Shown piece after piece: positions 8,866 through 33,471 of a DNA stretch of 64,000 nucleotides. The notes below the pieces were generated by a model. That model saw only the letters and a list, made by a program, of their open reading frames with translations, was not told where the DNA came from and did not search any database. The DNA lies in contig DAIDMQ010000018.1 of assembly GCA_027448945.1 (NCBI GenBank), positions 1-64,000 on the forward strand. The letters are read 5' to 3'. A program made the position numbers and the translations under genes. Position 1 is the first letter of the stretch. Every line of letters starts with the position of its first letter. Source of the stretch: Gallionellaceae bacterium. GTDB lineage: Bacteria; Pseudomonadota; Gammaproteobacteria; Burkholderiales; Gallionellaceae.

Positions 8866-9353
8866 GCGGACACACTGCGACTCGACAATAAGGCCAACAC
8901 ACCTTCCAATGCTATCTTTACAGCTTGTTCGCGTATCGAAGTACGATCACCATGCAGATGATAAACACGGGCTACACACTCACTTTGTGCGATGCACCAG
9001 GCGAACCACACCGTGCCCACCGGCTTCTCGGCGGAACCACCATCCGGCCCTGCGATACCGCTCACCGCTAATGCAATCTGCGCATCACTATGCGCCAATG
9101 CACCACTGACCATCTCGCGCACCGTAGCTTCACTCACCGCGCCGTATTGCAACAGCGTTGCGGCCGACACACCCAGCGATTGTTGCTTGGATAGATTGGA
9201 ATAAGTGACGTAGCCACGCTCGAACCAAGCCGAACTGCCAGCGATCTCTGTGATAGCCTGTGACACCCCCCCCCCCGTGCAAGACTCGGCAGTGCACAAC
9301 TTAAGTCCATGAGACTTGAGTGCCTGCCCTACTTGCGCAGACAGATTACGCAT
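8862..9353 (-). CDS. pncC: Nicotinamide-nucleotide amidase (CinA C-terminal domain)
   Basis: Stand-alone CinA C-terminal domain of 163 residues. It deamidates NMN to nicotinate mononucleotide in the pyridine nucleotide salvage cycle. The catalytic region reads LCTAESCTGG, followed by the family motifs ALAVSGIAGPDGG and KPVGTVWFA. The ATG at 9353 overlaps the metZ stop as TGATG, so it is translationally coupled to metZ and lies under the same riboswitch. Oddity: the codons for the Gly-Gly-Gly-Val stretch just after the catalytic Ser contain 11 consecutive G (9266-9276 on the plus strand as C), a tract prone to slippage that would abolish the protein. Confidence 0.9.
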   Translation of the reverse strand: MRNLSAQVGQALKSHGLKLCTAESCTGGGVSQAITEIAGSSAWFERGYVTYSNLSKQQSLGVSAATLLQYGAVSEATVREMVSGALAHSDAQIALAVSGIAGPDGGSAEKPVGTVWFAWCIAQSECVARVYHLHGDRTSIREQAVKIALEGVLALLSSRSVSA

Positions 9354-10522
9354 CACAGCCCGCCAACCAGATCGTTCTGAATATCCACCAAGGCTTCCAG
9401 ACCAACGGCGATGCGTATCAAGCCGTCGCTGATACCCGCTGCAGCGCGCGCTTCTGGCGTGATACGTGCATGCGTGGTGCTAGCAGGATGGGTGATGGTT
9501 GATTTGGTATCGCCCAGATTCGCGGTGATGGACAATAGCTTGGTCTGGTCTATCAATCGCCATGCGGCTTCCTTGCCGCCCTTGACCTCGAAGGACACAA
9601 TGCCGCCCCCGTTTTTTTGCTGTTGCATCGCCAACACATGCTGTGGATGAGAAGGCAACCCAGGATAGAACACACGTGCAACATTGGGTTGTTGTTCCAA
9701 CCAAGTCGCCAGCTGCAGCGCATTTGCACTATGCGCATCCATGCGCAACTTGAGCGTCTCCAAACCTTTCAGAAATACCCATGCGTTGAAAGCGCTCATG
9801 GTCGGTCCAGTTGTGCGCAAAAATCCATACACGGACTCCATATTTTTCTTGCTCCCCAGCACGGCACCACCTAAAACGCGCCCCTGACCATCGATATATT
9901 TCGTCGCCGAGTGAATCACGATGTCCGCGCCCAAATCCAAAGGACGTTGCAAGATAGGCGTACAGAAACAGTTATCCACTGCGAGCAAAGCACCTGCTGC
10001 CTTCGCAATCTTGGCGATCGCAGCGATATCGGAGATCTCGGTCAACGGGTTGGAAGGTGTCTCCAGGAAGAACAATCGTGTATTGGGGCGCACCGCAGCC
10101 TGCCACGCAGCAACGTCAGTCGCGGATACAAAGGTCGTCTCCACCGCAAATTTCTTGATCACGTTGTTAAACAGATTGACAGTGGAACCGAACAAACTCT
10201 GCGAAGCGACAATGTGATCACCCGCCTTCAGCACCCCCATCACACACGCCAGGATGGCGGCCATGCCAGATGCTGTAGCGACGCACTGTTCCGCGCCTTC
10301 CAATGCAGCCAAACGCTCTTCGAACATGGTCACAGTGGGATTGGTAAAGCGGGAATAAATGTTACCCGGCTCTTGTCCGATGAAGCGCGCCGCTGCCTGT
10401 GCGGCTGTAGGGAACACAAAACTGGAAGTCAGGAACATCGCCTCACTGTGTTCGCCAAATTCACTGCGCACCGTACCAGCGCGTACCGCCAGTGTCTCAG
10501 GTTGATAGTTCGTGTCAGTCAT
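9353..10522 (-). CDS. metZ: O-succinylhomoserine sulfhydrylase
   Basis: PLP enzyme that makes homocysteine directly from O-succinylhomoserine and sulfide, in methionine synthesis. It has 389 residues. Typical Cys/Met-metabolism motifs are present: YSRFTNPTV near the substrate site, ATASGMAAI, ETPSNPL and the PLP-lysine region SATKYIDGQGRVLGG. The ATG at 10522 has AAGGA eight bases upstream; the preceding in-frame GTG is less well placed. It sits alone behind a promoter, a SAM-II-like aptamer and a terminator, and is followed by the overlapping pncC. Expression should fall when S-adenosylmethionine is plentiful. Confidence 0.95.
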   Translation of the reverse strand: MTDTNYQPETLAVRAGTVRSEFGEHSEAMFLTSSFVFPTAAQAAARFIGQEPGNIYSRFTNPTVTMFEERLAALEGAEQCVATASGMAAILACVMGVLKAGDHIVASQSLFGSTVNLFNNVIKKFAVETTFVSATDVAAWQAAVRPNTRLFFLETPSNPLTEISDIAAIAKIAKAAGALLAVDNCFCTPILQRPLDLGADIVIHSATKYIDGQGRVLGGAVLGSKKNMESVYGFLRTTGPTMSAFNAWVFLKGLETLKLRMDAHSANALQLATWLEQQPNVARVFYPGLPSHPQHVLAMQQQKNGGGIVSFEVKGGKEAAWRLIDQTKLLSITANLGDTKSTITHPASTTHARITPEARAAAGISDGLIRIAVGLEALVDIQNDLVGGL

Positions 10523-10540
10523 CACTGCATTCCTTAATCT

Positions 10541-10580
10541 AAAAATTAAAAACCCGGATAGCTTGCGCTAAACCGGGTTT
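10541..10580 (-). terminator. Regulated terminator of the metZ leader
   Basis: On the minus strand AAACCCGG pairs with CCGGGTTT, with an inner stem TAGC/GCTA closed by GCAA, followed by TTAATTTTT. This is a strong intrinsic terminator 19 bases before metZ. Its 5' part includes TTTAGC (10567-10572), which is also complementary to the conserved GCTAAA of the aptamer, giving a plausible antiterminator. Confidence 0.85.
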
Positions 10581-10640
10581 CCCACGCTTTAGCTGTATTT
10601 TTTATGCGCCCGCAAGCTGATCCTCAAATCGGCGCAAGTG
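10581..10640 (-). ncRNA. SAM-II (SAM-alpha) riboswitch-like aptamer
   Basis: The transcribed strand carries the SAM-II signature in order: P1 strand TGCGCC, then GATTTG, then GCTTGC, the P1 return strand GGCGCA, an A-rich linker, and GCTAAA. Spacing fits the roughly 55-nt class. P1 is a perfect six-pair stem. The pseudoknot helix of the class could not be confirmed by eye in this copy. A promoter ends just before it, a terminator follows, and the controlled gene, metZ, belongs to the methionine pathway. SAM-II aptamers are best known from Alphaproteobacteria. Binding would sequester GCTAAA and let the terminator form. Confidence 0.78.
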
Positions 10641-10643
10641 AAA

Positions 10644-10671
10644 ATTATCACCATTACAACTCGCTCGTCAA
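10644..10671 (-). promoter_or_regulatory. Sigma-70-type promoter of metZ leader
   Basis: On the minus strand TTGACG (10671-10666) and GATAAT (10649-10644) are separated by 16 bases. The expected transcription start is near 10637, exactly where the SAM-II-like aptamer begins. Confidence 0.75.
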
Positions 10672-10731: not shown

Positions 10732-12258
10732 TTACATGGAGCTGGCACTCATCGCCAAATTCAACTCCATCTGGTCATCATCGCTAGCCTTGCCTGCCTT
10801 CTCGCCATTACGGCGCGCTTCCACGTTATCCAGATACTCGGCTGTGATGTCGCCAGTGATGTATTTTCCGTCGAAGCATGAAGCATCGAAATCGACAATA
10901 TTGGGATTGGCTTTACGCACCGAAGCCTTTAGGTCTGCCAAATCCTGATAGATCACTCCGTCCGCGCCGATTTCGAAACAAATTTCTTCATCGCTGCGGC
11001 CTGTGGCGATCAGTTCTGTACGGCTCGGCATGTCGATGCCGTAAACGTTAGGATAACGTACCGGTGGCGCGGCGGATGCAAAATAAACTTTCAACGCACC
11101 TGCATCGCGTGCCATCTGCACAATCTCACGACTAGTCGTGCCGCGCACTATGGAGTCGTCCACCAACAGCACGTTCTTGCCTTTGAACTCCACGCCGATG
11201 GCATTAAGTTTCTGGCGTACGGATTTTTTGCGCATTGCCTGACCAGGCATGATGAATGTACGGCCGATGTAACGGTTTTTCACAAAACCTTCGCGGAAGG
11301 AGATATTGAGATGATTCGCCAATTGCAAAGCGCTCGGACGGCTAGAGTCTGGAATGGGAATGACTACATCGATCTTTACATCTTTCCATTCGCGCTTGAG
11401 TTTCTCGCCCAAGAACTCACCCATATACAGACGTGTCTCGTATACCGAGACTCCATCAATGACAGAGTCGGGACGGGCAAAATACACATATTCAAAGATA
11501 CAGGAATTAAGCTTGGCTTTATCGCTGCATAGCTTGCTGTGCATCTTGCCATCGAAGTCGATGAATACTGCCTCACCCGGTGCAATATCGCGCAGAAATT
11601 TGAAGCCCAAGGTATCCAACGCGACGCTCTCAGAGGCGACCAGATATTCATCACCGGTTGCAGTCTCGTTCACACCCACCACCAGCGGGCGGATACCGTA
11701 GATGTCACGAAAGGCCACCAAACCATAACCCGCAATCATTGCCACCACAGCATAAGCACCACGACAACGCTGATGCACGCCAGATACCGCAGAGAAGATC
11801 GCAGCAGCATCTAAACGCATGCCCTTGGATTTGGCTTGTAACTCGTGAGCGAAGACGTTGAGCAAGACTTCAGAGTCGGAATTAGTGTTGACGTGACGCA
11901 AGTCATCCGCGAATAACTGCTTCTGCAATTCTTCGGTATTGGTCAAATTGCCGTTGTGACCAAGCACGATACCGAACGGGGAGTTAACATAAAAAGGTTG
12001 GGCTTCGTTGTGATCTACCGCTGAGCCTGCAGTCGGGTAGCGCACATGGGCGATGCCTGCATTGCCAGCGAGTGCGCGCATATTGCGGGTACGAAACACG
12101 TCACGCACCATGCCGTTGCCTTTATGCAGGTGGAAAGTGCGTCCATCCAACGTCGCAATACCCGCAGCATCTTGACCTCTATGCTGCAGAACCTGCAGGC
12201 CGTCATACAACAACTGATTCGCCGGTGTTTGTGAAACCACGCCAAGAATGCCACACAT
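10732..12258 (-). CDS. purF: Amidophosphoribosyltransferase
   Basis: First committed enzyme of purine synthesis: transfers glutamine amide nitrogen to PRPP to give phosphoribosylamine. The protein has 508 residues. It begins MCGILGVV, so the catalytic Cys becomes N-terminal after Met removal. The glutaminase domain covers about the first 230 residues, with HVRYPTAGS and GHNGNLTN. The phosphoribosyltransferase domain has the PRPP motif [17 protein letters not shown]. It follows cvpA by 31 bases, as in E. coli, where cvpA and purF are adjacent. The region before metZ contains a separate promoter, so the operon probably ends here, although no separate purF terminator was identified. Confidence 0.97.
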
Positions 12259-31545: not shown

Positions 31546-33471
31546 ATGGGAAAAATCATCGGTATTGACTTGGGCACAACCAACTCTTGCGTCGCCATCA
31601 TGGAAAACGGCAAGACCAAGGTCATTGAGAACGCGGAAGGTACGCGCACGACTCCTTCCATTATCGCTTACATGGAAGACGGCGAAGTATTGGTTGGCGC
31701 GCCGGCTAAACGTCAAGCTGTGACCAATCCTATGAACACGCTGTATGGCGTGAAGCGCCTGATTGGCCGCCGTTTTGACGAAAAGATGGTGCAGAAGGAC
31801 ATCGACATGGTTCCCTTCAAAATCGTCAAGGCAAAAAACGGCGACGCTTGGGTGAAGGTGCGTGACAAGGAATTCTCCGCACCAGAGATTTCCGCGCAAG
31901 TGCTGATGAAAATGAAAAAGACTGCCGAAGATTACTTGGGTGAGTCTGTGACTGAAGCAGTCATCACTGTTCCAGCTTACTTCAATGATGCACAACGCCA
32001 GGCGACCAAAGACGCGGGCCGTATCGCGGGTCTGGACGTGAAACGTATCATTAACGAACCAACTGCCGCTGCATTGGCGTTCGGTATGGACAAGCAAGAA
32101 GGCGACCGCAAAATCGCGGTGTATGACTTGGGCGGCGGTACTTTCGACATCTCCATCATCGACATCGCCGAGCTGGATGGCGAACACCAATTTGAAGTGA
32201 TGTCCACCAACGGTGATACCTTCTTGGGCGGTGAAGATTTCGACATGCGCGTCATCGACTTTTTGGTTGAGGAATTCCAAAAAGAAAGCGGCATCGACTT
32301 GCGCAAAGACGTGCTGGCCTTGCAACGTCTGAAAGACGCGGCAGAAAAAGCCAAGATCGAATTGTCGTCTGCACAACAGACCGAAGTGAACCTGCCTTAC
32401 GTCACAGCGGATGCGTCCGGCCCCAAACACTTGGCAGTGAAGATCACCCGTGCAAAATTGGAAAGTCTGGTCGAAGACTTGGTCGCTCGCACGATCGAGC
32501 CATGCAAAATTGCGATGAAAGATGCGGGCGTTTCTGTAGCCGACATTGGTGATGTGATTCTGGTTGGCGGTCAAACGCGCATGCCTATGGTGCAAGAACG
32601 CGTTAAAGCCTTCTTCGGCAAGGAGCCACGCAAGGATGTGAACCCCGATGAAGCGGTTGCGGTAGGCGCGGCAATTCAAGGTGGTGTATTACAAGGCGAC
32701 GTGAAAGACGTGTTGTTACTGGACGTAACACCTTTGTCTTTGGGTATCGAAACCATGGGCAGCGTGATGACCAAGCTGATTAAGAAGAACACCACAATCC
32801 CCACCAAGGCATCGCAAGTGTTCTCCACAGCAGAAGATAACCAGAGTGCGGTAACCATCCATGTGTTGCAGGGTGAACGCGAAATGGCAAGCGGAAATAA
32901 GAGTCTCGGTCAATTCAACCTGTCCGACATTCCACCCGCAGCACGCGGCACACCGCAAATCGAAGTGACCTTCAACATCGACGCGAACGGTATCTTGCAC
33001 GTTGCGGCAAAAGACAAAGCTACCAACAAGGAAGCCAACATCACCATCAAGGCCAGCTCCGGTTTGAGCGAAGAAGAAATCAACCGCATGGTTGCCGACG
33101 CCGAAGCGCATGCTGAAGAAGACAAGAAAACCCTGGAGCTGGTGACTGCGCGCAATCAGTTGGATGCGCTGATTCACTCCACGCACAAGTCGATGAAAGA
33201 ATTCGGCGAGCAACTGAGCGCGGAAGAAAAATCTGCCATCGAAGGCGCGATGAAAGAAGCGGAAGAAGTCGTGAAGTCAGATGACAAAGACGCTATCGAA
33301 GCAAAAGCCGAGGCTTTGGCAACTGCAGCCCAGAAGTTGGGTGAAAAAATGTATGCGGCTGAACAAGCCAAGGCACAAGGCGGCGATGCAAGTGCCGCGC
33401 CTGAATCATCGGCCAAGCAAGACGATAATGTCGTCGATGCTGAATTCACAGAAGTAAAGGACAAGAAGTAA
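31546..33471 (+). CDS. dnaK: Chaperone DnaK
   Basis: Hsp70 chaperone, 641 residues. Phosphate loop 1 is in [16 protein letters not shown], phosphate 2 in [17 protein letters not shown], and the Glu of the J-protein/DnaJ-dependent hydrolysis path lies in the [10 protein letters not shown] segment. Substrate-binding domain from about 390, helical lid from about 505, ending in an acidic EFTEVKDKK tail. The ATG at 31546 has GAAAGGA upstream; an in-frame start five codons earlier is not needed. Long open frames on the other strand are shadows. Confidence 0.98.

Follow-up and report, generated by a model that had tools for sequence, protein, structure and literature searches.

The leader that precedes metZ in a Gallionellaceae bacterium is very probably a beta/gamma-type SAM-II riboswitch that turns the gene off by transcription attenuation, with SAM as the presumed ligand and an OFF logic that we infer. 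The window analysed is the whole 64 000-nucleotide stretch of DNA in which this leader is found. The anatomy of the leader, its family match, its alternative pairings and the covariation of these pairings emerge from sequence and comparison of relatives. The riboswitch class itself is known. What is new is the eroded outer helix, P2a, of the pseudoknot, together with a comparatively supported exchange between four strands of aptamer and terminator.

Layout of the leader

The leader is sandwiched by purF and metZ and has all its parts on the minus strand, in the 5′ to 3′ order promoter-like site, aptamer, terminator hairpin, ribosome binding site (RBS) and metZ. An earlier note on this DNA had described the same succession of promoter, aptamer signature, terminator and metZ, and all of these were found in place. 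The features, with the evidence for each, are:

10732–12258, minus strand: purF, the upstream neighbour (NCBIfam TIGR01134, 525.7 bits)
10671–10666 and 10649–10644, minus strand: sigma-70-like promoter, TTGACG and GATAAT with a 16-nt spacer (consensus scan and relatives)
10572–10645, minus strand: SAM-II aptamer as aligned to Rfam RF00521 (covariance model score)
10636–10631 with 10610–10605 (10605–10636), minus strand: P1 stem, six pairs (sequence, folds, relatives)
10625–10630, minus strand: GAUUUG, putative counterpart of the third triplex strand in SAM-II/SAM-V (sequence; role by analogy, PMC6061858)
10612–10623, minus strand: GGAUCAGCUUGC, 5′ strand shared by pseudoknot P2 and the antiterminator (pairing tests, folds)
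10595–10611, minus strand: core long-range pair G10611-C10595 (counts and permutation in relatives)
10585–10619, minus strand: P2a remnant, C10619-G10585 (alignment counts in relatives)
10585–10593, minus strand: GCUAAAGCG, 3′ strand of pseudoknot P2, containing GCUAAA (folds, enrichment, alignment)
10548–10580, minus strand: intrinsic terminator, 10580–10573 with 10557–10550 and inner pairs 10570–10567 with 10562–10559 (folds)
10567–10572, minus strand: UUUAGC, complement of GCUAAA, antiterminator inner hairpin (folds, enrichment, alignment)
10556–10566, minus strand: GCAAGCUAUCC, terminator 3′ half, partner of the aptamer loop strand (pairing tests, folds)
10552–10548, minus strand: terminator U run (sequence)
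10531–10534, minus strand: Shine-Dalgarno-like AGGA, beyond aptamer and terminator (sequence)
9353–10525, minus strand: metZ, O-succinylhomoserine sulfhydrylase (NCBIfam NF006003, 728.8 bits, cut-off 522)
10547–10664, plus strand: antisense match to RF02424 (Bp2_287 'sRNA'), below cut-off (26 bits against 70)

The metZ start codon is GTG at 10525 or ATG at 10522. The closest 80 of 529 metZ relatives are 83–90% identical to the window metZ and by title come mostly from Gallionella, Sideroxydans, Gallionellaceae/Gallionellales or Nitrosomonadales; judged by sequence, the host is close to Gallionella-group genomes. Its order we take to be Burkholderiales in the GTDB taxonomy, where the former beta-proteobacteria fall within the window's class.

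The promoter-like site has 10 of 12 consensus matches, and the consensus scan found one such site where 0.5 are expected by chance; taken alone, the site would be weak. It gains support from the relatives: of 235 distinct stretches upstream of GATTTG-type elements, 195 contain TTGAC no more than 60 nt ahead of P1 (shuffled mean 12, maximum 23), and in 176 of these the motif is at 34–39 nt. In the available text on the metA element the SAM-II promoter likewise abuts P1 (PMC1273637). The terminator hairpin folds with z = −4.9, and none of 200 shuffled sequences is equally stable. A terminator consensus scan caught none in the window leader, because it admits loops of up to 8 and the loop of this hairpin is larger.

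The aptamer

The covariance search that the earlier note had called for gives a match to the Rfam model RF00521 (SAM_alpha, SAM-II) at 10572–10645 on the minus strand, with 39.7 bits against a gathering score of 36 and E = 1.9e-5 for the entire 64-kb window. It is the sole Rfam match at gathering level there. The signature that had suggested SAM-II, GATTTG, GCTTGC and GCTAAA around a six-pair P1, was recovered at 10630–10625, 10617–10612 and 10593–10588, respectively. P1 arms occur among relatives as the alternative paired sequences GUGCC/GGCAC and GCGCC/GGCGC.

The ligand-core motifs GAUUUG, UUGC and GCUAAA are all intact in the window. By analogy with the SAM contacts described for SAM-II and SAM-V structures (PMC6061858, available part), these may provide the third strand of the triplex, the U:A.U triple beside the sulfonium and the SAM-binding U and A; SAM is the likely ligand of the window element.

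Relatives were taken from collected loci by a pattern search that gave 259 distinct elements with at least four P1 pairs. The pattern required GATTT-, TTGC- and GCTAA-like motifs, and conservation of these motifs among the 259 elements is therefore by construction. The core long-range pair, between the base after UUGC and the second base before GCUAAA, is G-C in 234 elements, A-U in 8 and G-U in 6; among 213 distinct sequences 96% can form it, as against 92% after permutation (0 of 2000 permutations). This covariation agrees with an additional Watson-Crick pair between the end of the central loop and a downstream base, which the available text of a 2007 report predicted for SAM-II (PMC2258182).

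The reduced pseudoknot

The P2 core pairing is possible in the window leader. Next to C10619-G10585, however, U10620 faces U10584, a mismatch, and P2a is consequently one pair; the suspicion of a variant pseudoknot, raised earlier when the usual pairing was not obvious, has proved well founded. In the structural register, a short P2a does emerge among the relatives, with the C-G pair present in 253 of the 259 elements. The second P2a pair is standard in 71% of 183 compared with 56% permuted (0 of 2000 permutations). Outside the Gallionellaceae metZ type it is found in 73% of 71 leaders (50% permuted) and 84% of 89 (70% permuted), compared with 13% (3/23, 32% permuted) within that type. By these counts P2a is two pairs in the collected beta/gamma leaders, and the second is mostly lost in the Gallionellaceae metZ type. 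Alpha SAM-II differs, having a long G/C helix at this position. In the metX leader of the window genome P2a is retained, as U-A and C-G.

Two longer versions of the pseudoknot were tried and rejected. For a long P2a in beta/gamma leaders, the loop × 3′-flank duplex energy is no better than permuted in any of three groups (z = 1.1, −0.2 and 0.1), while in the alpha-type positive control the same strands beat permuted pairing (6/5000, n = 17). An extended P2 via the invariant GCUUGC and GCUAAAGC is unsupported, since changes occur on one side without compensation opposite.

With P2a almost gone and its second pair standard in so few leaders of this type, the SAM-II fold might have drifted, either toward weak binding of SAM or toward a different sulfur metabolite, e.g. 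SAH or methionine. A P2 mutation abolished the SAM response of the A. tumefaciens metA RNA, according to the available text (PMC1273637). Nevertheless, the window keeps the SAM-contacting motifs of SAM-II and SAM-V, and the crystallised SAM-II metX RNA is described as having a P2a of merely 2 bp (PMC6061858, in part), so that such a drift appears unlikely.

The proposed antiterminator

The aptamer loop strand GGAU(C)AGCUUGC (10623–10612) is complementary to GCAAGCUAUCC (10566–10556) in the terminator. Joined to GCUAAA:UUUAGC, this pairing makes an antiterminator of 17 pairs, all standard. Its pairs cannot coexist with P1, which they cross, and they use bases that the terminator also needs; the states therefore compete. 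The earlier note had seen in GCTAAA and TTTAGC a direct antiterminator/terminator choice. The complementarity is borne out by enrichment: 95 of 191 terminator segments contain the UUUAGC-type 6-mer, where dinucleotide shuffling gives 9.2 (maximum 19). It is just part of the larger antiterminator. By group the 6-mer is found in 26/28, 21/74 (the order group) and 49/90.

Computed energies are −27.9 kcal/mol for P1 plus terminator and −17.0 kcal/mol for the antiterminator, in a model that leaves out P2 and pseudoknots. The former is the more stable, and hence the ON state must be kinetic. For an RNA ending at 10556 the fold is P1 plus the GCUAAA:UUUAGC hairpin (−25.4); for one ending at 10554 the antiterminator is the computed optimum (−26.3); and for one ending at 10551 it is the terminator.

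A terminator-like hairpin is found in 185 of the 259 elements, and 152 were left after duplicate removal. Across these, the pairing of a leader's own loop strand with its own terminator 3′ half has −9.40 kcal/mol against −8.37 kcal/mol when permuted (z = −9.3, 0/5000). The excess is also present in each group, as assigned by locus number: the Gallionellaceae metZ group (n = 15, z = −4.9, 0/5000), the order group (n = 66, z = −6.2, 0/5000) and the class group (n = 71, z = −3.7, 1/5000), the last containing many families with at most three genomes per family, tandem loci included and a few from the order. Without tandem loci the class group (n = 63) gives 10/5000. As a control, the loop strand was paired with the terminator 5′ half, and there was no excess over permuted pairing. 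When each distinct loop strand is represented by a single leader, the signal is weaker but still stands: three draws give 0, 3 and 0 of 5000 for all 78 leaders, 1–12 of 5000 for the order (40) and 26–68 of 5000 for the class (46).

A first antiterminator test, in which three P1-side bases were included, gave 0/10000 overall and in both other groups, but in the class group own pairing did not stand out, 6996 of 10000 permutations being equally good. The test was redone without the P1-side bases and then with one leader per distinct loop strand. In alpha-type loci, mostly close relatives, the antiterminator test is null (2394/5000, n = 16).

An alignment of 46 leaders, picked for the same architecture, has the antiterminator plus P1 96.7% paired (0/500 shuffles). 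Column pair 19-81 is AU in 35 leaders, UA in 8, GU in 1 and other in 2, counts that refer to related sequences and not to independent events, and in 37 of the 46 the inner terminator pair that involves column 81 cannot form. Neither the number of pairs with both partners changed (2) nor that of additional pair types (6) exceeds the shuffled values (274/500 and 225/500, respectively); because double changes are no more numerous than in shuffles, the signal of this alignment comes down to one switched pair. The alignment is also compatible with a shifted register.

Proposed mode of control

Transcription would start immediately upstream of P1. When SAM is scarce, both P2 strands would be free; GCUAAA would pair with UUUAGC on the terminator 5′ side, and the loop strand would next pair with GCAAGCUAUCC on the 3′ side. 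The resulting antiterminator would exclude P1 and the terminator, and metZ would be transcribed. With SAM bound, both strands would be locked in the P1/P2 pseudoknot, the terminator would form first, and transcription would end before the RBS. The kinetic order of pairing is presumptive. In this four-strand exchange each P2 strand would have a terminator partner, with P2 plus terminator set against two antiterminator helices. The switching mechanism of transcriptional SAM-II riboswitches was called experimentally unestablished in the available text of the 2007 report (PMC2258182), and the model offers one that can be tested.

Tentatively, the beta/gamma metX/metZ leaders may form a subclass of SAM-II that traded its outer pseudoknot helix for the four-strand exchange, with the trade gone furthest in Gallionellaceae metZ; we lean slightly against this generalization at present. 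If it is correct, the Gallionellaceae metZ leader would be a SAM aptamer with hardly any P2a, governed by kinetics, and the metX leader, which keeps P2a, may respond at a different SAM level.

Distribution and gene context

The same genome has a second RF00521 match, on contig 3 at 32804–32881 (36.2 bits). The gene that follows is recognised as MetX, with homoserine O-succinyltransferase as the best-scoring assignment. With copies before metX and metZ, the element precedes the genes for both steps of the conversion of homoserine to homocysteine.

The earlier note thought SAM-II in a betaproteobacterium noteworthy. Beta-proteobacterial SAM-II was in fact already reported in 2007, as the available text indicates (PMC2258182), and the element is widespread. 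Among 61 near-relative genomes RF00521 finds it in 28 at E ≤ 0.001 and in 13 above cut-off. Our own covariance model, built from 32 aptamers with P1 as sole structure, has matches at E ≤ 0.001, the weakest of which may be chance, in 221 of 300 genomes sampled from the order and in 140 of 276 class genomes. At 20 chosen loci, 4 from the RF00521 search and 16 from our own model, RF00521 scores above cut-off at 10, including 7 of the 16. While our own model finds the riboswitch in most of the order genomes, RF00521 reaches its cut-off in only some. A phylum sample of 249 genomes has RF00521 matches in 59 (51 above cut-off) and matches to our own model in 69; many places are common to both models and lie in genomes outside the class with alpha-type sequences. 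Beta-like tandem elements were seen by eye in three genomes outside the class (L338, L339, L342), that of L342 apparently before metZ, and transfer between classes may account for them.

ORFs of useful length lie behind 243 of the 259 elements. The largest clusters, formed by single linkage and labelled from one representative each, are metZ-like (146), metX (29), metH (10) and metK (8), with 5 for metF; in total 198 elements precede ORFs of these five clusters. Beta/gamma-type SAM-II is found before metK, encoding methionine adenosyltransferase, at L184 and seven loci of the same cluster, and also before metH, metF, MetN-like and metE genes.

Among the closest 80 metZ loci, the element pattern is present within 700 nt upstream in 41 and unmatched in 39. 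At least four of the 39 have the element further upstream, ahead of another gene. In Gallionella-group loci L009, L069, L096, L100 and L111 another gene follows the riboswitch, and then metZ; the MYIP.. protein of ∼206 aa behind the riboswitch there has no NCBIfam match at E ≤ 1e-10. In three others (L074, L107, L113) the aptamer is truncated or mutated with the hairpin still present.

Such degenerate relatives, and the metZ loci without the pattern, are what one would expect if the window had a plain constitutive attenuator terminator behind a decayed, non-switching aptamer. The window aptamer, though, scores above the Rfam cut-off and its antiterminator co-varies, and we consider constitutive attenuation very unlikely; the invariance of core motifs in the alignments, being partly by construction of the search pattern, carries limited weight against decay. 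The preferred reading remains a SAM-II riboswitch that acts on the terminator.

Relation to named elements

The window element resembles the SAM-II metA element (RF00521; PMC1273637) in P1, the core motifs and the core long-range pair, as well as in the promoter just before P1, the methionine gene and the downstream terminator. It differs in that the window-type loop strand covaries with the terminator.

The metXZ element, reported in 2014, consists of six conserved blocks and a terminator before metX/metZ in beta-proteobacteria (PMC4239095, available part). Host group, genes, conserved blocks, a P1-like pairing of blocks 1 and 4 and the downstream terminator are shared with the window element, and on context and anatomy, compared by description, the two are probably the same. 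The available text presents it as a new RNA without known ligand, with block 3 partnerless and one copy per genome, whereas here it is SAM-II, the block has two partners and the window genome has two copies. Its authors had already speculated that blocks 3 and 4 form an antiterminator with the terminator stem. The same text gives SAM_alpha as found only in Rhizobiales and Rhodobacterales.

In the alpha organism S. meliloti, unlike the window's host, a SAM-II element precedes the same gene, metZ, with a predicted SAM-induced terminator, and an RNA of ∼100 nt was observed (PMC9373788, available part). Overlap of the switching model given there with the present one is possible.

SAM-V has the same ligand core and a short P2a, but is described as translational, with the Shine-Dalgarno sequence in P2a (PMC6061858, in part); here the Shine-Dalgarno-like sequence, 10534–10531, is outside the aptamer. 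SAM-V identity was rejected on this location of the RBS, together with the lack of any Rfam SAM-V match at E ≤ 1 in the window.

The RNA Bp2_Cand287, now RF02424, was found beside purF, metZ and metX (PMC3521395, available text), i.e. in leaders of the same genes. That the leader is, or is overlapped by, such an antisense or trans-acting sRNA with no switch is scarcely credible, for although RF02424 matches the opposite strand in the window and at other loci, its score is far under the cut-off, the match is antisense to the SAM-II aptamer at 8 of 8 loci, and the RT-PCR behind it, as far as the available text describes, used oligo(dT) cDNA, which gives no strand evidence (PMC3521395). RF02424 was rejected as the identity of the leader on this score and strand. 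The 8 of 8 antisense matches indicate that RF02424 probably models the antisense strand of this riboswitch leader. SAM-II, the orphan metXZ element and the Rfam sRNA RF02424 probably merge into one riboswitch; no paper joining the three was found in the open-access literature, to which the search was confined.

Tandem elements

In 18 tandem pairs a SAM-II-type aptamer is followed, 49–119 nt downstream, by a second aptamer-like element (L012, L029, L125, L169, L172, L176–L178, L182, L183, L215, L217, L229, L230, L235 and L288, and the weaker L194 and L300). The second element has GATTTA replacing GATTTG in 13 of 18, and is near a start codon, often before short ORFs. At six tandem loci the second aptamers have no Rfam SAM-V or SAM-II match at E ≤ 0.5. 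Of ten ORFs scanned behind tandems, eight have no Pfam or NCBIfam match, and the two matched encode an AAA ATPase and a Sel1-repeat protein; a homology search with a 109-aa ORF gave five proteins, two termed 'hypothetical protein' and three unnamed. Tandem SAM-II is already known, with 44 cases in the available text of one report (PMC9481103). One class genome, G549, has 10 matches to our own model.
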